Shown: piece by piece, positions 20,256 to 29,138 of the stretch
Position numbering within the stretch: the first letter of the stretch is position 1
Layout of the letters: every line of letters begins with the position of its first letter
Assembly: GCF_000300455.3 (NCBI RefSeq)
Contig: NZ_CP007215.2
Location: forward strand, 4,278,001 to 4,342,000
Origin: Kosakonia sacchari SP1
Lineage (GTDB): Bacteria > Pseudomonadota > Gammaproteobacteria > Enterobacterales > Enterobacteriaceae
DNA: 64,000 bases
Reading direction: 5' to 3'
Program-made: the position numbers and the translations under genes
Notes under the pieces: model-generated
The model's database searches: none
Told to the model about the DNA's origin: nothing
What the model saw: only the letters and a program-made list of their open reading frames with translations

Positions 20256-22166
20256 TCAAAAGCGGCTCAGCGACTCCATCGCCACACTTTTAAACGACGC
20301 GAAATCGGCACAGGCACAGAGTCGCGCCGTTACGCGTTCGCGCAGGAAGGTAACGAAAATATCGTAGATCGCCATCGCCTCTTCATACTCACTCTTGCTG
20401 ATCGCCAGCAGGAAGATGACATGCGCGGTTTCATCACCCCATGCGATCCCCTCAGGTGCCAGCACGGTATAGACCACCGTTTTTTTCGCCAGCAGCCCCA
20501 GGGCGTGCGGCAACGCGATGCCCTCGCCGAGCAGGGTGCTGACAATCGCTTCGCGCTCGACCACCGAATCGAGAAACTCCGCGTCGACAAAGCCTTCATC
20601 CTGCAATTGGTGACACAAGGTGTTGAACAGCGTTTGTTGATCCATCGCGCCGTCGATGATGCGGAAATGCGCGGCATCAAAATACTTTTCCAGCATCCAC
20701 GGACGCGTTCGGTCTACCAGCACCAGCTTGCCGATCTGCTCCAGTTGATACTCGCTGGGAAACGGCGCGATGGTGACGACCGGCTTATCTTTTTCATTCA
20801 CCCGCGCGGTGGAGATAACAAAATCCTCCGCGATGCCGTCGCACTGCTCGTACTCACGCAGCGTCACGGTACGCGTCACCACAATCTGCGGATATTTACG
20901 CGCCAGCACCGCCTCAATCATCCGCACCATCGCATTGCCGACATCGCACACCAGCAACACGCGCGGCTGGCGCTGATAACCCACGTTGTAATGGCGCTCA
21001 AGACCCACGCCGATATGCAGCACCAGAAAACCGATCTCGTTTTCGCTGATCACATAAGGCGTGTATTTCCCCCAACTGGAGACCGCCGCCAGCGTCATAT
21101 CCCACGCCATGGGATAGTGCTGTTTAATGTTATCCAGCAATGGGTTAGGGATCATTATCTGGTAGCGCACGCGGGTGATCATGGTTTTGATATGCGTGAG
21201 CAGATCCGCGTGCAACTGGTCATCGTTTTGCAGGTTGTAGTTATAGTGCGTATTGATATAGCCGAGGATGTAGTTGACCAGCGCTTCGTCGTCATCGGCG
21301 CTGATGGCGCTGGGCGCAATCTCTTGTACGCGCCGTCCGGCGATATGTACCCGCAGCCAGTGCTCCTCCGCCGCCGCCAGCGGTTTTCCCGCCAGCTGTT
21401 GCAGCGCAGAAGAGATATCCCGCGCCGCCTCTTTGACATTGTCGTCCCCATCTTCGGCGCTGAATTCAGAGAGCGGATAGCCCTCGCTGATGCGGCGAAC
21501 CGCCACCGCACAGTAAAGGCGGATAAACAGATCGCCCTCATCCGTGAGGCGAATATGGTGGCAGTTAAAACAGTCATGCAGAATGGCAGCCAGCGCCTCC
21601 AGTACGCCCGGATTGAGCGCTTCTTCGGTGATCAGCGGGTTATCGGCATTTTGCTGCGCCAGTTCCCACAACAGATCCGTCAGACAGGCGCGCAGCGCCA
21701 TTTCGCTGCCAAACAGTTTCATGCCGTGACGCGGACGGGTTTCCAGCGTCAGACGGTAGCGGGAAAACCACTCGCGCACCTCGGTCATATCATTTTGCAG
21801 CGTGGCGCGGCTGACAAACCACTCATCCGCCAGATCTTCCAGCTTAAGCGAGAAGGCGGACGTGAGAAAACGCACCACCAGGTAATGCACACGCTCCGGC
21901 CCGCTGCGCGGAATGCGCAGCGCACGCGGGCGCGCCGCCTGCAAGCTCTGGTAACGCGTGGCGTCATCAATTTTCAGTTGATAGCCGCTGCCGCGCGTCA
22001 AAATAAACTGCGCACCGTGGTGCAGCAGTAGCGCATTCAGTGCGGTGATATCGGCCCGAACGGTACGCGTCGAGACCGACAAGCGCTGTGCCAGCTCATC
22101 CTGCGGTAGCGTCTCGTTTTGCAACATCATAAACAGTTGCGCCAAACGTTGGTTCGGGAATCGCAC
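20256..22166 (-). CDS. PRD/EIIB/EIIA-containing transcriptional regulator (BglG/MtlR-like)
   Basis: A 636-residue multidomain regulator. An N-terminal HTH (about 5-45: QDELAQRLSVSTRTVRADI) and a second Mga-type HTH (about 105-135) indicate DNA rather than RNA binding. Two PRD domains follow (about 195-285 and 295-395). An EIIB-Gat-like domain has Cys407 (VLLVCDVGNA), and a C-terminal EIIA-like domain has His554 (GIALPHA). PRD2 keeps His325 and His384. The first PRD1 histidine position appears to be lost (RLYCAVAVRR), while His274 is present. Such regulators read PTS phosphorylation state. It is the last gene of the ten-gene operon, 14 bases after the lactonase, and probably controls it. Confidence 0.9.
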   Translation of the reverse strand: MRFPNQRLAQLFMMLQNETLPQDELAQRLSVSTRTVRADITALNALLLHHGAQFILTRGSGYQLKIDDATRYQSLQAARPRALRIPRSGPERVHYLVVRFLTSAFSLKLEDLADEWFVSRATLQNDMTEVREWFSRYRLTLETRPRHGMKLFGSEMALRACLTDLLWELAQQNADNPLITEEALNPGVLEALAAILHDCFNCHHIRLTDEGDLFIRLYCAVAVRRISEGYPLSEFSAEDGDDNVKEAARDISSALQQLAGKPLAAAEEHWLRVHIAGRRVQEIAPSAISADDDEALVNYILGYINTHYNYNLQNDDQLHADLLTHIKTMITRVRYQIMIPNPLLDNIKQHYPMAWDMTLAAVSSWGKYTPYVISENEIGFLVLHIGVGLERHYNVGYQRQPRVLLVCDVGNAMVRMIEAVLARKYPQIVVTRTVTLREYEQCDGIAEDFVISTARVNEKDKPVVTIAPFPSEYQLEQIGKLVLVDRTRPWMLEKYFDAAHFRIIDGAMDQQTLFNTLCHQLQDEGFVDAEFLDSVVEREAIVSTLLGEGIALPHALGLLAKKTVVYTVLAPEGIAWGDETAHVIFLLAISKSEYEEAMAIYDIFVTFLRERVTARLCACADFASFKSVAMESLSRF

Positions 22167-22180
22167 GTCGCTCTCCAGAC

Positions 22181-23329
22181 TTAAGGGTGAGAAGAAATAA
22201 CCATCTGAGATGGACTGCCTACCGGCGTGTAGTCCGGCTCAAAATGCAGTTTCCCGTCACGTTCCACGCGAAAACGGGTGATGTTATCGCTGCGCTGGTT
22301 CATCACGTATAGCCAGCGACCATTGTCCGCCAGCGTCAACGTGCGCGGGTAATCGCCGCGCGTCCAGACATCGTCTTGATGGGTTAGCGACCCATCGGCT
22401 TTCACCGTAAAGTGCGCGATGCTGTTATGCAACCGGTTGGCGACATACAGCTGTTTCCCGTCACCACTTAATACCAGCCCGGCGGCAAAACTGGTGCCTT
22501 TATACGCTTTCGGTAGCGCCGAAAAGGTTTTCCCCGGCAACAACGTGCCGGTGGTTTTGTTCAGCGCGTAGTGCGTGAGCGTCGAGGCTTCTTCATTGAT
22601 CAGCCACAGGCCATCGCCCTTTGGTGTGAACACAAAGTGGCGCGGCCCGGCACCTTGCGAAGAGGCGCTAATAAAGGGTGGATCATTCGGCGTTAACGCG
22701 CCCGTTTTGCCATCAAACTGATACTGATAAATGCGATCCAGCCCAAGATCGGTAGAAAAGACGAATTTCCCGCTCGGATCGGCGGCGATCATATGCGCAT
22801 GCGGGCCATTATGATCGCTAATCGCAAAACTGCCTTCCACCGCCGCAGCCGGTTTCGCCGCGCCCGGTTCGCCCTGATCCTGACGCGTATCCACCGCCTC
22901 ACCGAGGCTACCATCTGCTTTCACCGGCAGCACGGCAATCGATCCGCTGATATAATTCGCCACCAGCAAAAAATGTCCATCCGGCGTCAGCGACAGATAG
23001 ACCGGTCCGGCACCACCGGACGCCACCTGGTTCAGCACGCTCAACTCACCGTTATCGCCAATACGCAGCGCCTGCACCGCGCCCTTTTCCACCTCGCTGG
23101 CGAGATAGAGTGTTTTACCATCCCGCGCCACCGTTAGTTGCGCCGCGTTCGGCAACGGGCTGACCAGCGTTTTATTGCCCAGTGCCCCGGATTGCGGGTC
23201 AACGGTAAAGCGATAAAGCCCTTCACCGTTCGGGTTGTAGGTTCCCACCCAGGCGTATTGCGTTTGAGCCATGGCGCTGGTCGCCAGCAGAGAAAGTGAA
23301 ACGGTAAGCAGATGACGAGTGGTAAGCAT
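22181..23329 (-). CDS. exported lactonase, beta-propeller family (6-phosphogluconolactonase-like)
   Basis: A 382-residue seven-bladed propeller protein of the lactonase (YbhE/Pgl-like) family, with repeated blades such as GAGPVYLSLTPDGHFLLVAN and GPRHFVFTPKGDGLWLINE. Unlike cytoplasmic YbhE it starts with a clear signal peptide (MLTTRHLLTVSLSLLATSAMA-Q), so it should be periplasmic. It sits between the dgaF-like gene (57 bases) and the regulator (14 bases) in the operon. A reasonable role is opening an aldonolactone before uptake. That is inference; some members of this family have no proven activity. Confidence 0.88.
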   Translation of the reverse strand: MLTTRHLLTVSLSLLATSAMAQTQYAWVGTYNPNGEGLYRFTVDPQSGALGNKTLVSPLPNAAQLTVARDGKTLYLASEVEKGAVQALRIGDNGELSVLNQVASGGAGPVYLSLTPDGHFLLVANYISGSIAVLPVKADGSLGEAVDTRQDQGEPGAAKPAAAVEGSFAISDHNGPHAHMIAADPSGKFVFSTDLGLDRIYQYQFDGKTGALTPNDPPFISASSQGAGPRHFVFTPKGDGLWLINEEASTLTHYALNKTTGTLLPGKTFSALPKAYKGTSFAAGLVLSGDGKQLYVANRLHNSIAHFTVKADGSLTHQDDVWTRGDYPRTLTLADNGRWLYVMNQRSDNITRFRVERDGKLHFEPDYTPVGSPSQMVISSHP

Positions 23330-23386
23330 GAGAGCTCCTTACGTGACGAGGGGAGTTTCCCCTCCCTTATCGGGAGGGAAGGCCGT

Positions 23387-24127
23387 TTACTTCACCAATC
23401 TTTTGGTCATTTCCAGCAACTGGCGAACATCCGCCGGGCGCGTGTCACCACTCGCCTTATCAATGATTGAACTGTAAATATGCGGGATCACTTTACGCAC
23501 ACCCGCATCCAGCGCGATTTGCAGGATTTCACTGAAGTTTTCGAGATCGATTCCACCGGTCGGCTCCAGCCAGAAATCATGGCGTGCACAGGCTTGCGCC
23601 ACGGCGATGAATTCGTCGCGGCATTTCAACCCGCCCATCGGGAAGTATTTAATGGAGCTGCCGCCCATATCTTTTAGCAGCGCAATAGCCGTTTCCACCG
23701 GCACAATGCCGTCTGGCGCCTGGCTGCTCAACGGCCCGGTGGAGATTTTTACCATCCCCGGCGTGCCGGTTGGCGAGACCAGACCGTTAACCACCGTGTC
23801 GTGCTGCCCGAGCAGCGCGCGGCTGGTCGCCACGCCAGTGAACACCTGGTTAACGTGCTGCGGTTGAACTTCACGGGAGATGGCGCTGACCATGGCCGAC
23901 TGGTTCGGATCGCCCGCACCAAGGCCAACGGAAAGCGCATTATCAATACGTGCTGCGTAGTCGCGCATATCCGCGACGGCAGTCGCCACATCCGGGTAGT
24001 TTTTCGACAGCACGCCCACCAGCACATGGCCTTCCGCGGCCTCGTAAATTGCGCTGGCGTTCTCTTTGCTGCCCGCCAGTACGTTCAGACATACGCGGTC
24101 GCGGTAAAAATTCGGCGTTAGTTTCAT
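23387..24127 (-). CDS. dgaF: KDGP aldolase, DgaF family
   Basis: A 246-residue protein of the family whose characterised Salmonella member DgaF cleaves 2-keto-3-deoxy-6-phosphogluconate to pyruvate and glyceraldehyde 3-phosphate. The likely Schiff-base residue is Lys160 in SSIKYFPMGGLK, resembling the KFFPA motif of KDPG aldolases. A glycine-rich SVGLGAGDP is near 67. It overlaps the dgaE-like gene by four bases (ATGA), so the two are translationally coupled. Homologues in other bacteria occur in the same unusual cluster with DUF4310-4312. The symbol is used by homology; the true substrate here is unproven. Confidence 0.85.
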   Translation of the reverse strand: MKLTPNFYRDRVCLNVLAGSKENASAIYEAAEGHVLVGVLSKNYPDVATAVADMRDYAARIDNALSVGLGAGDPNQSAMVSAISREVQPQHVNQVFTGVATSRALLGQHDTVVNGLVSPTGTPGMVKISTGPLSSQAPDGIVPVETAIALLKDMGGSSIKYFPMGGLKCRDEFIAVAQACARHDFWLEPTGGIDLENFSEILQIALDAGVRKVIPHIYSSIIDKASGDTRPADVRQLLEMTKRLVK

Positions 24128-25242
24128 ACGTTGGATCCCTTGTTCAGTTCTTCGGCGATGCGGCGGTAAATAATCATCAGTTGTTCAGCGGTGACGCTGC
24201 GCACATCAGCTTCGATAATCCCTTCGTTGGCTTTATAACCACGGAAGTAAATGGCGTATTCGCCCTGTTTCAGGGCGCTGACCAGCTCGCCGGTAGCGAT
24301 CCCGGTGACGGCTTCATCAAATTTGATTTCGCTGCGGGCAATATCGCGCCCGGCGCTGTCCCACACCACGCGGGCGCGCACACCTTGCAGCGTGTTTAGC
24401 TGGTCGATAAACGGCGTCATTTTGGCGACCATTTCCGCCCCGCTCTCTTTGCTGGCAGAAAGATAATGCTCAATGGCGCACGTCAGGCCGAGAATGCCCT
24501 CTTTGCCCACTTTCATCGCCCGGCCAATGCCCGCCGTCTGGCGTTTTACCCACTCTACATACTGCGTTTTGCCGATCACCAGCCCGCTGGTTGGCCCTTC
24601 AATCGCTTTTGCGCCGCTGTAGATAACCAAATCCGCACCGGCGCGGTAGTAGCACTGCAAATCCTCTTCCGCCGCCGCATCAACAATCAGCGGCAGGTTG
24701 TGCTTGCGCGCCACCACAGCGGCCTGTTCCACGCTGAGCATGCTTTTCTGTACACAGTGATGAGATTTGATAAAGAGGATCGCCGCCGTGCGCGGCGAGA
24801 TTGCCGCCGCCAGTTGATCGGCAGAGCATTCATTGGCGTAACCGGCTTCCACCACTTTGCCGCCGCCCAGCGCCACCATGGTGCCAACCGGCGCGCCAAA
24901 GTTAACGTTGTGCCCGCGCGGCAGCACGATTTCGTTGTTCTCAATTGGCGTGCTGTGCAGGTTTTCCAGCAGCCAGTCGCTGTCTTTCACCAGCACGGCG
25001 GCGACGGACTGGGCAATGCCGGCCGACGCGCACGACACCACCGTCGCGCCTTCAACTTCCAGCAGTTTGGCAATGTATTCGCCAGTTTTATTCACCAGAT
25101 CTTTCATTTCGAAGTAGTGATTCATGCCACTTAATACGGCGTCGACCACTTCCGGGCGTGGCGTGGAAACGCCGAGCGCCGTCATGCGCCCGGAGGCGTT
25201 AATCACCTGTTTCAACTGGTACTTATCATAAATCGAAGGCAT
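24124..25242 (-). CDS. dgaE: PLP-dependent D-glucosaminate-6-phosphate ammonia-lyase, DgaE family
   Basis: A 372-residue fold-type I PLP enzyme of the SelA/DgaE branch. DgaE converts D-glucosaminate-6-phosphate to 2-keto-3-deoxy-6-phosphogluconate plus ammonia. The PLP lysine is Lys212 in YSGAKAIEGPTSG, and the ring-nitrogen Asp188 is in LIVDAAAEED. A CASAG phosphate-cup motif is at 71-75. Start ATG 25242 is chosen because AAGGGAG lies eight bases upstream; an in-frame GTG at 25251 would add three residues. It overlaps the amidohydrolase end by 17 bases and dgaF by four. The symbol is by homology to the Salmonella enzyme. Confidence 0.87.
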   Translation of the reverse strand: MPSIYDKYQLKQVINASGRMTALGVSTPRPEVVDAVLSGMNHYFEMKDLVNKTGEYIAKLLEVEGATVVSCASAGIAQSVAAVLVKDSDWLLENLHSTPIENNEIVLPRGHNVNFGAPVGTMVALGGGKVVEAGYANECSADQLAAAISPRTAAILFIKSHHCVQKSMLSVEQAAVVARKHNLPLIVDAAAEEDLQCYYRAGADLVIYSGAKAIEGPTSGLVIGKTQYVEWVKRQTAGIGRAMKVGKEGILGLTCAIEHYLSASKESGAEMVAKMTPFIDQLNTLQGVRARVVWDSAGRDIARSEIKFDEAVTGIATGELVSALKQGEYAIYFRGYKANEGIIEADVRSVTAEQLMIIYRRIAEELNKGSNV

Positions 25243-26359
25243 GTGCGGCACTCCCTTGTTCGGTCATATAGCCCTTGCCTGCACGAATCGCGGCAAGCGG
25301 CGTGAGGATCTGTTCGGCCTGTAACGTCTCGTTTTCCGCATCGGTGAACAGCACCGGCTGGCGTTTCAGGTCGAAAATGGTCAGGTCGGCGTCGAAACCC
25401 ACGGCAAGACGCCCTTTATGCTTCAGGCGCAAGCCATCGGCAGCGTGGTCGGTCACACAGGCGATCACCTGCGGCAGCGACATGCCAATGGCGAGGAATT
25501 TGGACATCACATTCGCCAGCGAGCGTACTGGGCCATCGATACGGTTGCGGCAGTAAATGTCGGAACTGATGGTCTGCGGCAAAATGCCAAGCGCGATAGC
25601 TTGCTGTGCCACCGCAAAGCTGAAACTGGCGCTGCCGTGTCCAACATCAAGGCGCACACCGCGCGCAATTGCGTGAGTCACGGAAGCTCGCAGCTCGCCA
25701 GTTGGCGTCAGAATGCGGTTTGGCTTGCCGTTATAGCAGTGGGTAATGATGTCGCCGGAAGTGAGTAGATCGGCGATTTCATCGAGATTGGGCGGGTTGT
25801 TGCCAATATGCACCATCAACGGCAAATCCCCGTTCTGTTGCTGAATAGCTTTGGCGCGTTGCAGCGGCGTGATGCCGTTGTCGCCGACCACGCTACTGCT
25901 CATGCGCGCTTTCAGGCCGACAATAAAATCCGGGTGGCGTTTTATGGCATCGCGCGCGGCATTAGCGTCGATATTGTTCAGGTTCGCCAGTTCGTTTTGC
26001 GCAATCAGACCAACGCGCGAGATATTCAGCAGCGCATAGACGTCCGTCGACGCCTTGCGGGTAATGGCATAAAAATCATCGATGTCATCCGCGCCGGTGC
26101 TCCCGGCGTCAATCACCGTGGTAACACCGGTCTGAATGCCGACGCTATCGGGCTCGTCGTGATAAATGGGTGAGTTCGGGTAACAGTGGACATGGGAGTC
26201 GATCCACCCGGCGCTGACATAGTGTTCGCCATGTAAATCCACGATTTTTGCCGCCGGGCCGTCGATATCGCCAAGCGCCGCGATTTTGCCCGCCGCGATG
26301 GCAATATCCGTCACCGTGTCGTCAACCAGACGCGCCCGGCGCAGGAGTAAATCAAACAT
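25226..26359 (-). CDS. metallo-dependent amidohydrolase/deacetylase
   Basis: A 377-residue amidohydrolase-superfamily enzyme. Metal ligands are visible as His57 and His59 (GWIDSHVH). Lys150 in VGLKARMSS is a likely carboxylated bridging lysine. Later histidines in MVHIG and ITHCYNGK and the Asp in SSDIY complete the typical HxH-K-H-H-D set. The family includes dihydroorotase-like and N-acyl amino-acid/amino-sugar deacetylases. Because a DgaE-type enzyme follows in the same operon, a role in deacylating an N-acylated amino-sugar acid is plausible, but the substrate cannot be read from sequence. It is preceded by the DUF4310 gene 42 bases upstream. Confidence 0.87.
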   Translation of the reverse strand: MFDLLLRRARLVDDTVTDIAIAAGKIAALGDIDGPAAKIVDLHGEHYVSAGWIDSHVHCYPNSPIYHDEPDSVGIQTGVTTVIDAGSTGADDIDDFYAITRKASTDVYALLNISRVGLIAQNELANLNNIDANAARDAIKRHPDFIVGLKARMSSSVVGDNGITPLQRAKAIQQQNGDLPLMVHIGNNPPNLDEIADLLTSGDIITHCYNGKPNRILTPTGELRASVTHAIARGVRLDVGHGSASFSFAVAQQAIALGILPQTISSDIYCRNRIDGPVRSLANVMSKFLAIGMSLPQVIACVTDHAADGLRLKHKGRLAVGFDADLTIFDLKRQPVLFTDAENETLQAEQILTPLAAIRAGKGYMTEQGSAAHAFDL

Positions 26360-26401
26360 GCGAATCTCCAGGAGTAACGGGCGCCGCAGCGCCCGTGGGT
26401 G

Positions 26402-27043
26402 TCAGAGGGCTACCGGGAAAATGGAGCCCAGCAGCATCGCACCGAGGATCGCGCCCCCGGTGATCGGCTTCTGCCAGAGGTAAAACAGCAGCGCGCCAAT
26501 CAACGAACCAATGCCAATCGGAATAGAAGCGGTCATCGCGCTGAGGATAATCAACGGGCCGAGGAAGCGGCCGGAGGCGTTACCCGCGCCCATCATCACG
26601 TCTGCGCCGTAGGTGGAGTCGCTCTGATTAATGGTGAACTTACGCGCCAGAATAATCAGGTAGCCGATCGCCAGGCCGATGATCAGCCCGGTTGCCAGCG
26701 AAGCCATAAAGTTCGCCACCGGGAAGACAAATCCTGCGCCGAGCAGCAGCGCCGGCACGCCAAGGCCAACCCCGGTCTGGATAGCTCCACCGATATCCAG
26801 GATGCCGACCAGCGAGCCTTCGATAATGCGGGCGAACAGGAAGCTCGCGCCAAACGCCGCCACCGCGCCATAAACGCCGGTATCCATGCCGGAACGCAGC
26901 ATTGAAACAAACGCCACTTCGTTAAATGCGCCAATGCCGTACAGGTAGTACATGTGTGTCCCGGCGAACACGCCGGAAGAGAGCAGGCCGACGAAAATCG
27001 GGAATGACCAGTCGGCGTACCAAAAGCCTTTATTCTGTTCCAT
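26402..27043 (-). CDS. DUF4310-family membrane protein, putative transporter subunit
   Basis: A 213-residue integral membrane protein with about six to seven hydrophobic segments rich in small residues (GVGLGVPALLLGAGFVFPV, ATGLIIGLAIGYLIILA, IPIGIGSLIGALLFYLW). It belongs to a family found only together with DUF4311, DUF4312, the SFCGS protein, a small PRD protein and DgaE/DgaF-like enzymes in scattered Gram-negative and Gram-positive bacteria. No biochemical function is established to my knowledge. It lies nine bases after the DUF4311 gene, so the two probably form one membrane complex. Confidence 0.85.
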   Translation of the reverse strand: MEQNKGFWYADWSFPIFVGLLSSGVFAGTHMYYLYGIGAFNEVAFVSMLRSGMDTGVYGAVAAFGASFLFARIIEGSLVGILDIGGAIQTGVGLGVPALLLGAGFVFPVANFMASLATGLIIGLAIGYLIILARKFTINQSDSTYGADVMMGAGNASGRFLGPLIILSAMTASIPIGIGSLIGALLFYLWQKPITGGAILGAMLLGSIFPVAL

Positions 27044-27052
27044 CTCGGTTCC

Positions 27053-27829
27053 TTATTTGCCGCTGAGCGAGTTGTGGATAAGCGACAGCCAGTCCGGCGC
27101 GCTCAGGTGGAAGGACTCGATCATTTTCAGGTCAAAGCCGCGGAAGAATGCACTCAGCACAAACAGCGCGACAATCGCCGTCATCATCACTTTGGTGACG
27201 CGGTTCCAGCCGCTCTCTTCCACACCTTTACCAATCAGAATGCCCAGCACCAGACCCGGTACGGCGTTACCCATAATCAGCTGCGCCGCGCCGCCAAAGA
27301 CGGTCGCCCAGAAGCCGGATTTCTTGCCCGCATCAATCGCTGCCAGCCAGAAAATCACCGGCATCACGGTGTTGACCAGCAGGTTCGCGGCCGGAACCAG
27401 CACTTTCACCGCCGTCACCTGCAATGCCGCCGGAACGGAGGAGGCGGTCAGGTTGAGGAAGGTGACGACCACCATGCCGATAAGCCCACAGGCGATAGCC
27501 ATCTTTTTCGGATCATGCAGGGTTTCACCCACGTTGCGGTTTTTCACCATCAACGCCGCAGCGCCCCAGTTCGGAATAATGCGGTGGTCAACGTCCTGCG
27601 TGAACGACCCTGCCGCAACGGACGACGCCCAGGCGTTAAAGAAGAAACCCAGACCAAACGAGAAGTGCGAAGCCGGGTCCCCTTCGCAGGAGTTCAGTTC
27701 GCCCAGTGTACGAAATGCGCCCATCCCTTGCGTGGTCGGCGCGTGGAACATGCGTGCAGCCCCTGCGCCCACACCGACGCCCACCAGGCCGCCGATAATG
27801 AGCGATTTTATTAGTATGATTAAGAACAT
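27053..27829 (-). CDS. DUF4311-family membrane protein, putative transporter subunit
   Basis: A 258-residue integral membrane protein with an N-terminal segment MFLIILIKSLIIGGLVGVGVGAGAA and several further transmembrane stretches (IACGLIGMVVVTFLNL, LLVNTVMPVIFWLAA, IVALFVLSAFFRGF). A soluble-looking loop contains LNSCEGDPASHFSFG. The start ATG 27829 has GAAGAGGG upstream; a longer GTG start at 27865 lacks one. It is the probable partner of the DUF4310 protein in an uncharacterised permease. Confidence 0.83.
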   Translation of the reverse strand: MFLIILIKSLIIGGLVGVGVGAGAARMFHAPTTQGMGAFRTLGELNSCEGDPASHFSFGLGFFFNAWASSVAAGSFTQDVDHRIIPNWGAAALMVKNRNVGETLHDPKKMAIACGLIGMVVVTFLNLTASSVPAALQVTAVKVLVPAANLLVNTVMPVIFWLAAIDAGKKSGFWATVFGGAAQLIMGNAVPGLVLGILIGKGVEESGWNRVTKVMMTAIVALFVLSAFFRGFDLKMIESFHLSAPDWLSLIHNSLSGK

Positions 27830-27880
27830 CAGTCTGCCCTCTTCTACCCTGTGATACTGGCTCACGGGGTATGCGGTGAG

Positions 27881-28177
27881 TTATTGCGTGACGAAATCCA
27901 CTTTATCGAGATTGATGGCGGTCACGTTGACGGTGACGTCCAGCTCCACGCTGTACGTGCGTCTTATCCGGCGCAAAAAGAGGAACAAAAAGGCCTCTTT
28001 ACGCGTCGTTTCCTGCGCCTGAACAACCTGCACGTCCTGTGGCTCAATGCGCAGTAAAATGTGCGGCGACGATTTCATCACCGCGGCCTGAACATGGTTC
28101 AGCGCATCGGCAAAGGCGCGCGCTTTCGCATCGCCCTTGCCCTTTACCCTGACCGTGGTGGTGAACTGTTCTTTCAT
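27881..28177 (-). CDS. DUF4312-family small protein
   Basis: A 98-residue soluble protein (MKEQFTTTVRVKGKGDAKARAFADALN...). It has no membrane segment and no known catalytic motif, and looks like a small alpha/beta domain. The gene starts two bases after the SFCGS gene stop and is followed 51 bases later by the DUF4311 gene. The family is confined to this cluster type. Function unknown; tight coupling to the glycine-rich protein suggests a cytoplasmic complex. Confidence 0.82.
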   Translation of the reverse strand: MKEQFTTTVRVKGKGDAKARAFADALNHVQAAVMKSSPHILLRIEPQDVQVVQAQETTRKEAFLFLFLRRIRRTYSVELDVTVNVTAINLDKVDFVTQ

Positions 28178-28179
28178 GG

Positions 28180-28542
28180 TTATGCGCCGTATTTTTTCTG
28201 CCACGCCTGCACCAGACGCTCGCCTAACTCTTCTTTGTCCATAAAGCCAAAGCCCAGCACGTTGCAACCTTCGTTAATCGCCGTCACGCCCTCTTCCACA
28301 GAACGCATGCCGTATTTGGCTTTGTAGCCATGTTTGTTTTGCGCGGTGATAGCCCCCGCGCCGCCGCTGCCGCAAAAGGAGATGCCAAAAGTGGCGTTTT
28401 CCGTTTTCATGACGTCGCCAAGCTTCATATCCGCCGCCACGCCCGGCACGACCACCGCGCGGCCGCCCGCTTTTTCCACACCTGCCGCCACTTTCTGGCC
28501 TTTACCCAGGCGGTCACCAATCACTACGGTAATCTGTTCCAT
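28180..28542 (-). CDS. glycine-rich SFCGS-family protein
   Basis: A 120-residue protein with a Rossmann-like start (ITVVIGDRLGKGQKVAAGVEKAGGRAVVVPG) and the signature GISFCGSGGAGAIT, with Cys57 at its centre. A single exposed cysteine in a small alpha/beta protein of about 100 residues recalls PTS EIIB domains, but sequence similarity to EIIB is not evident to me. Start ATG 28542 has AAGGAGCG upstream. It lies between the PRD-like gene (10 bases) and the DUF4312 gene (2 bases). Confidence 0.83.
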   Translation of the reverse strand: MEQITVVIGDRLGKGQKVAAGVEKAGGRAVVVPGVAADMKLGDVMKTENATFGISFCGSGGAGAITAQNKHGYKAKYGMRSVEEGVTAINEGCNVLGFGFMDKEELGERLVQAWQKKYGA

Positions 28543-28552
28543 TTTTCGCTCC

Positions 28553-28888
28553 TTAAAGGTTGTCTTTCGCCACTTCGAAGTGCACCGACAGCAGCCAGGC
28601 TTCTTCTTCCGGAAGGTTGCCAAAGGCCGCCACGACGTCGCGGGCAAGGCTCATGGAATCCGCCGAGATCTCGTCGAACAAGCTGGCGTCCACTTCTGGC
28701 AGCGGTTCGCCGGTCACCGACCGGTGTGCCATCGCGCGGACATGAGAAGTCAGCATCTGTTGCTGCACCGCGTTCGGCGTAATGTTCTGAGAACTGAGTA
28801 AGGCATACACCTGCTTCAGCATGCGTTCAGCTAGGGTTGCCGTTTGCGCAGCCTGCTCCGCGTCGTTTATTACCGCTCCGTTATTCAC
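28553..28888 (-). CDS. small stand-alone PRD-domain-like protein
   Basis: A 111-residue alpha-helical protein resembling a single PTS regulation domain. It has a SHVRAMAHR segment around His49/His54 and LLSVHFEVAKDNL with a second histidine near residue 103, the two places where PRDs carry phosphorylatable histidines. It has no DNA-binding domain. The start is GTG 28888 with a weak ribosome-binding site (ACGGGGT). It is the first gene of the ten-gene operon, after a 250-base region with a 20-bp palindrome. A role as a PTS-responsive switch or phosphocarrier for the system is inference. Confidence 0.78.
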   Translation of the reverse strand: MNNGAVINDAEQAAQTATLAERMLKQVYALLSSQNITPNAVQQQMLTSHVRAMAHRSVTGEPLPEVDASLFDEISADSMSLARDVVAAFGNLPEEEAWLLSVHFEVAKDNL

Positions 28889-28956: not shown

Positions 28957-28976
28957 TTTCCACTTCGAAGTGGAAA
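28957..28976. promoter_or_regulatory. perfect 20-bp palindrome upstream of the DUF4310-4312/dga operon
   Basis: TTTCCACTTCGAAGTGGAAA is a perfect inverted repeat 69 bases before the first start codon, in the 250-base region between the operon and the LysR gene. It is the most obvious operator or activator site for the PRD/EIIB/EIIA regulator. The inner 12 bases recur at 28571-28582 inside the first gene. Nothing else recognisable was found in 28889-29138 beyond a GC-poor stretch and a possible TATACA -10 around 29032. Confidence 0.55.
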
Positions 28977-29138
28977 CGCGGAAGGCTTTAGTGATCTGCG
29001 CCGCAAAATGAGGCCGCTCAGGGATTTTTCACTGTATAGCGGTCACAATTTTGACCTAAAGAGGCGGAAAAGCAGCAGCCCCAAAGCACAAAAAAACGGC
29101 GGGCGGGAAGGGAAAAGTGTGAGGTGAATAAGGTTTAC

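Follow-up and report, generated by a model that had tools for sequence, protein, structure and literature searches.

A ten-gene operon of Kosakonia sacchari probably encoding a PTS-linked permease for an N-acyl-glucosaminate-like acid

Ten genes on the minus strand of the Kosakonia sacchari SP1 genome, at positions 20256–28888 of the window (the whole 64,000-nucleotide stretch of DNA that was analysed), join a five-gene module of small and membrane proteins to enzymes of the DgaE/DgaF type. Our best reading of the sequence is that the module would act as a permease linked to the PTS, probably a phosphorylating one, with an N-acyl-glucosaminate-like acid as its substrate. The explanation as a whole, in which this plant-associated enterobacterium would import and degrade an N-acylated 2-amino-2-deoxy-aldonate by PTS-type group translocation, is given slightly less than an even chance.

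Judged by its layout, the ten-gene run is an operon. The open reading frame coordinates confirmed all ten genes, with starts picked from the upstream sequence and from annotated relatives, and their spacings in transcription order are 10, 2, 51, 9, and 42 bases, an overlap, a second overlap (ATGA), and 57 and 14 bases. Coordinates, order, and spacings thus agree with the sequence-only reading of this DNA, which had described ten genes on one strand with gaps of no more than 57 bases and two overlaps. All ten exceed the curated cut-off of at least one Pfam or NCBIfam family. The gap between the transport half and the enzyme half (26360–26401, minus strand) has the features of an intercistronic hairpin, with a folding energy of -16.1 kcal/mol in the window; the same gap in 82 loci has a median z of -2.58 against base shuffles, with 54 of the 82 below -2.

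Seven of the genes score above the cut-offs of TIGR03577, 03578, 03579, 03580, 03581, 03582, and 03583, models of the cluster EF_0829–EF_0839/AHA_3910–AHA_3917, and an eighth belongs to the DgaE subfamily TIGR01437. The cluster is therefore already known, but its models give the module no function, and the DUF families of the module are named in no paper of the literature library searched. The Enterococcus cluster carries the five module genes in the order of the window, together with a lactose/cellobiose-type PTS EIIC, a MupG-type protein, and a KDG-kinase-like gene, whereas the lactonase is an addition of the window. New here are the linkage in 69 of 69 genomes, the substitution in the PTS slot, the Bartonella HPr-EI gene, the invariant PRD histidines, and the relation of the SFCGS protein to RpiB.

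The order PRD-SFCGS-DUF4312-DUF4311-DUF4310 is constant in 90/90 scored loci, those of Enterococcus and Bartonella among them (DUF4310 is truncated in L096), which argues that the clustering is non-random. As these loci were collected through DUF4311, the count shows that the five genes travel together, not how frequent they are. Among 149 Enterobacteriaceae genomes, DUF4311 and the KDGP aldolase co-occur in the identical 69, one weak DUF4311 match having been dropped before counting, and the distance from DUF4311 to DgaF is 3.4–3.9 kb in every one of the 69. Loss of the membrane genes in relatives that keep the enzymes, which the sequence-only reading had named as counting against its proposal, was not seen: DUF4311 is missing from 0 of the 69 genomes that carry a KDGP aldolase.

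Eleven of the 69 module genomes contain a second, diverged DgaE/DgaF pair. These 11 extra pairs, 41–49% identical to the DgaE and DgaF of the window, adjoin mannose-family PTS (ManX/ManY/ManZ-like) genes at 11/11 loci, so that the extra aldolase copies of the 69 aldolase-bearing genomes sit beside a PTS and not beside the module. Neither a module gene nor an amidohydrolase was found in the 15–16 kb around each sister locus (tblastn, 1e-5). The five-gene module therefore appears to fill the slot of the PTS. The Salmonella-type dga operon (DgaABCD, DgaE, DgaF) shares DgaE and DgaF homologues with the window and, according to PMC9529869, brings the acid in phosphorylated by its mannose-family PTS. 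In the window, the module replaces that PTS, an amidohydrolase and, as in many such loci, a lactonase are added, and the regulator is of the PRD/EIIA type; no mannose-family DgaABCD gene was detected among the ten genes with Pfam and NCBIfam. From the linkage (69/69) and the substitution (11/11) we infer that the five genes take up an amino-sugar acid, as had been proposed, although the non-PTS nature then assigned to the system has become doubtful.

Several observations argue for a link to the PTS. The last gene (20256–22166, minus strand) encodes an HTH-PRD-PRD-EIIA transcription regulator (PRD, PTS_EIIA_2, HTH_11, and Mga), and its EIIA His554 is kept in 83/83 regulators passing a 75% coverage filter (L083 and L094 fall below it); a domain scan detected no EIIA domain in the Enterococcus regulator. 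The first gene (28553–28888, minus strand) encodes a stand-alone PRD protein of 111 aa of the EF_0829 family, which passes in NCBIfam only (TIGR03582, 139 bits, cut-off 69) and stays under the cut-off of Pfam PRD (E=0.068). It is the most variable of the five module proteins, with 16 of 111 positions invariant among 83 distinct sequences. Its invariant polar residues are Q42, H49, R56, E96, H103, and E105, of which H49 and H103 are candidate phospho-histidines, and we propose the protein as a phosphohistidine carrier or gate. On both Bartonella plasmids (2/2), a gene annotated ptsP and of equal length lies directly downstream of the operon; a domain scan of one of the two identified it as an HPr-EI fusion, the general phosphate donor of the PTS. 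This gene, the invariant H49 and H103, and the invariant Cys57 of the SFCGS protein together point to the PTS, although the Bartonella HPr-EI may serve just to phosphorylate the PRD regulator. The earlier statement that no PTS gene is present thus stands for EII permease genes, and a family search found no free EIIA or EIIB among the ten genes, but an EIIA sits inside the regulator beside its two PRDs and the first gene is itself a PRD. A non-PTS system is made doubtful by the invariant PRD histidines, the EIIA histidine (83/83), the Bartonella HPr-EI, and the DgaE arginines described below (84/84).

PRD domains are regulatory, and a PTS EIIC adjoins the Enterococcus module, both of which would suit a membrane sensor in which the five proteins serve the PRD/EIIA regulator while another permease imports the substrate. 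We regard this as very improbable, as the enterobacterial and Bartonella operons carry no other permease and two conserved multi-pass proteins exceed the needs of a sensor.

The second gene (28180–28542, minus strand; PF14272, TIGR03577), whose start follows the ribosome-binding sequence AAGGAG, encodes the glycine-rich SFCGS protein of 120 aa. LacAB_rpiB is matched by 33/33 SFCGS members at E<=1 (best 0.0013), under the Pfam gathering score (17.7 bits against 24.7), and in the same scan the unrelated family DUF1685 matches 16/33 members with a best E of 0.006. In RpiB, Cys66 is catalytic, and His99 and the C-terminal Arg133/137 have functional roles. The SFCGS protein has in common with the RpiB/LacAB isomerases an NVL-FG stretch and the CGxG loop with Cys66, to which its C57, invariant in 53 distinct sequences, aligns. 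In contrast, it has Asn90 at the place of His99 and ends before the C-terminal Arg133/Arg137 segment, and is therefore no canonical isomerase. On these features, and with weak scores, we read the protein as a probable RpiB/LacAB relative in shortened form, with the cysteine retained and the isomerase histidine lost. We propose Cys57 as a phosphocysteine site and the protein as an EIIB-like subunit, although we know of no RpiB-like protein that carries a phosphocysteine.

The channel would be formed by DUF4310 (26402–27043, minus strand; PF14187 355 bits, TIGR03579 389 bits) and DUF4311 (27053–27829, minus strand; PF14188 402 bits, TIGR03580 513 bits), for which a simple hydropathy scan gave four strong hydrophobic segments and six segments, two of them overlapping, respectively. 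The remaining small protein, DUF4312 (98 aa; 27881–28177, minus strand; PF14189 113 bits, TIGR03578), has R43 and R70 as its only invariant polar residues. DUF4310 and DUF4311 match no PTS family in Pfam or NCBIfam, and hhalign against single E. coli sequences found no sequence relation of these two to ManY, ManZ, SrlA, SrlE, or UlaA (E 0.025–0.4), nor of SFCGS to GatB or UlaB. The AlphaFold models of the two membrane proteins (pLDDT 47 and 41) are too poor for fold comparison, so the lack of EIIC/EIID homology holds at the level of sequence only. An ion-driven transporter for the same acid, built of DUF4310/4311, DUF4312, and SFCGS and gated by phosphorylation of the PRD protein, would account for membrane proteins unlike the EIIC/EIID compared, for a PRD that lacks any DNA-binding domain, as would suit a PTS-controlled gate, and for an SFCGS protein that may retain an RpiB-like ligand-binding loop. 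However, an unlinked kinase would then have to phosphorylate an unusual acid, the enterobacterial and Bartonella operons are kinase-free, and the module occupies the place of a phosphorylating PTS; we consider this transporter rather unlikely.

The enzymes bear on the substrate. The EF_0837-type amidohydrolase (25226–26359, minus strand; TIGR03583 573 bits, cut-off 432), with the solved relatives 8wzy (687 bits) and 2ics, is present in 89/90 module loci and 0/11 mannose-PTS loci, which suggests an N-acyl substrate; we propose that it is the N-deacylase of the imported acid. To the D-aminoacylases of the PDB, which the OngB-type deacetylase of the Ong route resembles, its similarity is remote (E about 4e-4). 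The DgaE-family PLP ammonia-lyase (24124–25242, minus strand) is placed at ATG 25242 after an annotated Klebsiella gene, the longer reading frame starting at GTG 25251. With 606 bits against a cut-off of 385 it is a member of the DgaE subfamily TIGR01437, yet its 378 bits miss the cut-off of 600 for NF047797, the equivalog of the characterised D-glucosaminate-6-phosphate lyase. Module-type DgaE proteins keep equivalents of His163 and Arg301/332/346 in 84/84 and of His162 in 83/84. According to the DgaE study (PMC9529869), the substrate phosphate was docked near these three arginines. The conserved arginines and the lack of any kinase gene in the enterobacterial and Bartonella operons argue for a phosphorylated substrate, although the arginines leave it unproven, as the cluster is shared with the more distant solved relative 8t7j. 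The DgaF-type KDGP aldolase (23387–24127, minus strand) exceeds the cut-off of NF047796 (393 bits against 300) and has a close solved relative in 3m0z (478 bits).

In marine bacteria, GlcNAc1A is deacetylated and deaminated without phosphorylation, as PMC11653859 states, citing Jiang et al., and PMC12017989 likewise. By analogy with this Ong route, uptake might be non-phosphorylating: DgaE would convert the free acid to KDG, which a chromosomal or linked KdgK would phosphorylate before DgaF acts. Kosakonia does encode a KdgK (524 bits), unlinked to the operon, and the Enterococcus cluster has its KDG-kinase-like gene, which with the PTS EIIC makes later phosphorylation, or another permease feeding the enzymes, possible there. 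Still, we hold this route to be improbable in view of the arginine equivalents in 84/84 DgaE proteins and the homologous DgaE/DgaF pair found elsewhere with a phosphorylating-type PTS.

The ninth gene (22181–23329, minus strand; PF10282 315 bits) encodes an accessory lactonase of the seven-bladed propeller type with an apparent signal peptide ending in A-x-A, as seen by eye and with a simple pattern. It has a tblastn match in 48/90 loci and is missing from 34 loci with the other nine genes, 6/90 being too short to judge. Chitin oxidation as the source of the substrate finds no support: LPMO genes show no association with the operon, occurring in 14/69 genomes with it and 13/80 without it (p=0.53), and no LPMO gene was found in the K. 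sacchari genome.

Upstream of the first gene lies the perfect, strand-neutral 20-base palindrome TTTCCACTTCGAAGTGGAAA (28957–28976), a candidate operator recognised by its conservation in the upstream alignment. Of 85 sequences compared (the window plus 84 loci), 79 have TTTCCA-N8-TGGAAA upstream of the first gene; the exceptions are L023, L076, L087, and the loci of Aeromonas, Bartonella, and Enterococcus. Mean column identity reaches 99% in the palindrome, against 69% and 80% in its two 60-base flanks, and a whole-genome scan found the exact palindrome once and a looser pattern at one more site. The PRD/EIIA regulator probably binds it. A weak site, TGCGGCGCAGATCACT (28990–29005, minus strand), with the consensus TGTGGcACAGATCACT in the upstream regions of relatives, is presumably CRP-like.

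In the favoured group translocation, the substrate would most likely be N-acetyl-D-glucosaminate, whose lactone the exported lactonase, where present, would open outside the inner membrane. DUF4310 and DUF4311 would form the membrane channel, with the small PRD protein, SFCGS, and DUF4312 as cytoplasmic subunits, and PEP would donate phosphate by way of EI and HPr to a histidine of the PRD protein (or of the EIIA of the regulator), whence it would pass to SFCGS Cys57 and on to the entering acid. No relation of these parts to the EII permeases used for comparison was detected. By homology, the amidohydrolase would then take off the acyl group, DgaE would eliminate ammonia to give KDGP, and DgaF would cleave KDGP to pyruvate and glyceraldehyde 3-phosphate, while the PRD/EIIA regulator would sense the same phosphate flow.

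The E. coli yhf cluster (YhfS-YhfT-YhfU-Php-YhfW-YhfX-YhfY) resembles this arrangement in part. YhfY is similar to the small PRD protein (hhalign E=2.1e-4), and YhfU/DUF2620 to SFCGS, both being small with a Cys loop; DUF2620 is matched by 12/33 SFCGS members (best E=0.0045), hhalign alone giving a weak E of 0.065. A PLP enzyme and a hydrolase are likewise common to the cluster and the window, as is a large membrane protein, but YhfT has no similarity to DUF4310 or DUF4311 and the PLP enzyme is of another family. Tentatively, and with more doubt than confidence, we suggest a separate class of PTS permease, with PRD as EIIA, an RpiB-derived cysteine-loop protein as EIIB, and a channel of two membrane families unrelated to known EIIC/EIID; yhf (YhfY, YhfU, YhfT) would then represent another branch of this class.

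If these proposals are true, Pfam and NCBIfam families now named by number or motif would be a sugar-acid importer in 69 of the 149 Enterobacteriaceae genomes sampled, close to half, as well as in Enterococcus and on Bartonella plasmids. PEP would then be coupled to transport in a new way, the stand-alone PRD protein would gain a function, and there would be a first hypothesis open to test on the uncharacterised yhf cluster of E. coli K-12.

The operon comprises ten minus-strand genes (20256-28888), and gene calls together with family searches give the order of transcription as those for a small PRD protein, the SFCGS protein (start 28542), DUF4312 (start 28177), DUF4311 (start 27829), DUF4310, an EF_0837-type amidohydrolase, a DgaE-family lyase (start 25242), a DgaF-type aldolase, a lactonase (22181-23329), and an HTH-PRD-PRD-EIIA regulator. 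The four starts given were preferred over those of the longest open reading frames. The first five genes constitute what we refer to as the module. Across the query, its DUF4311 protein shares 100% identity with those of Kosakonia pseudosacchari and K. quasisacchari. The lactonase is similar to 6-phosphogluconolactonase, with a score under that model's cut-off; owing to its apparent signal peptide and its patchy presence among relatives, its expected substrate is an unphosphorylated lactone located outside the cytoplasm. Hairpins lie in the gap that separates DUF4310 from the amidohydrolase (26360-26401; median z -2.58, 54 of 82 loci below -2, -16.1 kcal/mol in the window) and in that between dgaF and the lactonase (23330-23386; median z -6.06, 42 of 46 loci below -2, -22.1 kcal/mol in the window), whereas three other gaps have median z values of -0.08 to 0.54, all against base shuffles. 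With these positions, the two hairpins mark off a transport, an enzyme, and an accessory part of the operon, and mRNA stability may be set by them.

Upstream of the first gene, a 20-base palindrome (28957-28976), a candidate operator, occurs in 79 of 85 upstream regions, where no other stretch is conserved as well. A second palindrome, GGTCAAAATTGTGACC, was rejected as an operator since just 3 of the 85 regions retain it. The upstream consensus also contains a CRP-like box, which is weaker in the window. A scan for sigma-70 promoters performed no better than chance (3 found, 4.4 expected), and a count of terminator-like sites over both strands gave 19 where 11.4 were expected, several of them within operon genes.

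Among 98 loci gathered, 90 were scored by tblastn at an E value of 1e-4, the eight omitted being two copies from the window's own genome, two weak DUF4311 hits, three own-genome PEP-utilizer loci, and the E. coli yhf locus. All ten genes occur in the same order at 48 of the 90, and another 34 show this order without the lactonase; six, of 3.6 kb each, stop short of the enzyme genes, the Enterococcus locus has the regulator placed in front, and an Aeromonas caviae record has lost the amidohydrolase and DgaE. Because the 80 loci from genome contigs are the best 80 of 494 encoding a relative, the sample is nearly all Enterobacterales with shared recent ancestry. At the Aeromonas locus (10663-11274 of L096), the start of DUF4310 is fused in frame to the last part of dgaF, apparently through a deletion whose ends lie in two short stretches of similar sequence. 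This operon adjoins genes whose translations, read by eye, resemble an HPr-like protein, RapZ, and PtsN.

DUF4311 and the KDGP aldolase are present in the same 69 of 149 sampled Enterobacteriaceae genomes, 3.4-3.9 kb apart in all 69; the aldolase gene is broken in two of these (G789 and G872), as is DUF4311 in G789. Weak DUF4311 matches (21-27 bits), which came from some Enterobacteriaceae and from the E. coli control, were discarded. Only one of them, locus L009, was read by eye, its translation being that of a DjlA-like J-domain protein, and the rest were dropped by analogy, including genome G867 (26.9 bits, 28 with neighbours), which was listed as over the cut-off and whose removal turns 70 of 149 into 69. 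DUF4311 is uncommon across Pseudomonadota, two overlapping samples having it in 7 of 299 and in 12 of 398 genomes, all of them Enterobacteriaceae, and SFCGS was found in one of 369 sampled Gammaproteobacteria genomes, namely that of the window. The operon had no blastn match (2,487 bases) in 5,426 E. coli genomes, and none of 279 pattern matches in viral contigs was confirmed as a relative. Six plasmid-collection records carry DUF4311 (two Klebsiella, one Aeromonas, two Bartonella, one Enterococcus), of which one Klebsiella record and the Aeromonas record, 4.9-5.4 Mb long, are probably chromosomes. The Enterococcus cluster (8941-20263 of L094) joins the module with a lactose/cellobiose-type EIIC of the phosphotransferase system (PTS), a MupG-type protein, and a KDG-kinase-like gene. 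In this strain, the reading frame of dgaF stops early, at 163 aa. On one Bartonella plasmid (1-7085 of L095), annotated replication and partition genes adjoining the operon occur twice as an inverted duplication, with type VI secretion genes annotated on the other side. Literature searches gave no match for the module's DUF names, for "glycine-rich SFCGS", or for 8WZY, Atu3266, and related terms, and the passages found for the EF locus tags of the cluster concern EF0839 only.

Whether the enzymes act on a phosphorylated substrate can be approached through DgaE. In passages of PMC9529869, its substrate phosphate is docked near Arg301, Arg332, and Arg346, and His162 and His163 are named near the active site. 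The equivalents of the three arginines and of His163 are retained in all 84 module-type DgaE sequences, and that of His162 in 83, the exception being from Bartonella. The arginines are found as well in the solved relative 8t7j; therefore, they are a family marker and by themselves no proof of a phosphorylated substrate. Family searches and gene annotation revealed no kinase gene within the enterobacterial operon, and KdgK is encoded elsewhere in the Kosakonia genome. LPMO genes, which would suggest oxidised chitin as a source of the substrate, show no association with the operon.

A link to the PTS is suggested by plasmids of Bartonella sp. HY761 and HY406, where the operon lacks the lactonase and has a gene annotated as ptsP 64 bases beyond its end. 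The HY761 product is a 671-residue HPr-EI fusion with HPr, EI N-terminal, mobile, and PEP-binding domains well over cut-off; that of HY406 is known from its annotation and equal length. An operon that encodes a general PTS donor probably depends on such a donor, although this dependence may perhaps be the regulator's only. The small PRD protein, whose Pfam PRD match is weak (E = 0.068), varies more than any other module protein, with 16 of 111 positions invariant and 77% mean identity to the window, as compared with 17-58% of positions invariant in the other four. Nevertheless, its H49 and H103 are unchanged throughout 83 distinct sequences, and these residues would occupy the positions where PRDs bear phosphorylatable histidines.

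The SFCGS protein of the window matches LacAB_rpiB weakly in Pfam (E = 0.0037) and the NCBIfam RpiB models at E values of 0.0023 and 0.0045. All 33 aligned members match LacAB_rpiB at E up to 1, in scans where the unrelated DUF1685 matches 16 of 33 (best E 0.006) and the unrelated Cecropin reaches 0.0032 in one member. Its best PDB match is E. coli RpiB (E = 0.56 alone, 0.17 as a profile), in a search that also returned a viral fusion protein at 0.31. With hhalign, RpiB is matched at 2.4e-4 (probability 44), and GatB and UlaB at 0.24 or more. The likeness gains weight because several RpiB models agree on the same stretch. In the alignment, C57 corresponds to Cys66, S59 to Thr68, and N90 to His99, and the SFCGS chain stops before the position of RpiB Arg133/137; thus, the cysteine and the glycine-rich loop are kept and the rest of the isomerase apparatus is missing. 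The cysteine could accept phosphate. As a precedent, an EIIB cysteine reportedly exchanges phosphate with a PRD histidine in BglF/BglG.

A possible parallel is the yhf cluster of E. coli K-12, which encodes the small PRD protein YhfY, YhfU (DUF2620), the large membrane protein YhfT, the hydrolase Php, and the PLP enzyme YhfS. The module PRD aligns with YhfY in hhalign (E = 2.1e-4), and DUF2620 is matched by 12 of 33 SFCGS sequences (best E = 0.0045), the direct comparison of SFCGS with YhfU being weak (E = 0.065). YhfT showed no relation to DUF4310 or DUF4311 in hhalign, which likewise gives no support to YhfT as a fused DUF4311-DUF4310. This parallel may serve as a lead rather than a result. 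AlphaFold models of DUF4310 and DUF4311 (mean pLDDT 46.5 and 40.6) were both unusable, probably because the input relatives are 89-99% identical.

An argument on the function of the module comes from genomes with a second aldolase match away from it (11 of 69), for all of which the stretch was fetched. Each of the 11 has a diverged DgaF (46-49% identical) and DgaE (41-44%) beside ManX-, ManY-, and ManZ-like genes, and tblastn at 1e-5 found no match to the other eight operon proteins in any of the fetched stretches. This is the gene layout of the characterised dga system, in which, according to passages of PMC9529869, a PTS delivers D-glucosaminate 6-phosphate to DgaE. Within the family, and even in a single genome, homologous enzyme pairs thus receive their substrate in one of two ways, through a mannose-family PTS or through the module. 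The proposal of the sequence-only reading, that the module is an uptake system for an amino-sugar acid or a derivative in place of a PTS, stands as regards uptake. The module version adds the amidohydrolase, a likely deacylase, at 89 of 90 loci. On these comparisons of gene content, the module would most simply be a permease of equivalent output for a substrate bearing an N-acyl group. We give a little less than an even chance to the view that this uptake system is PTS-linked and probably phosphorylating.
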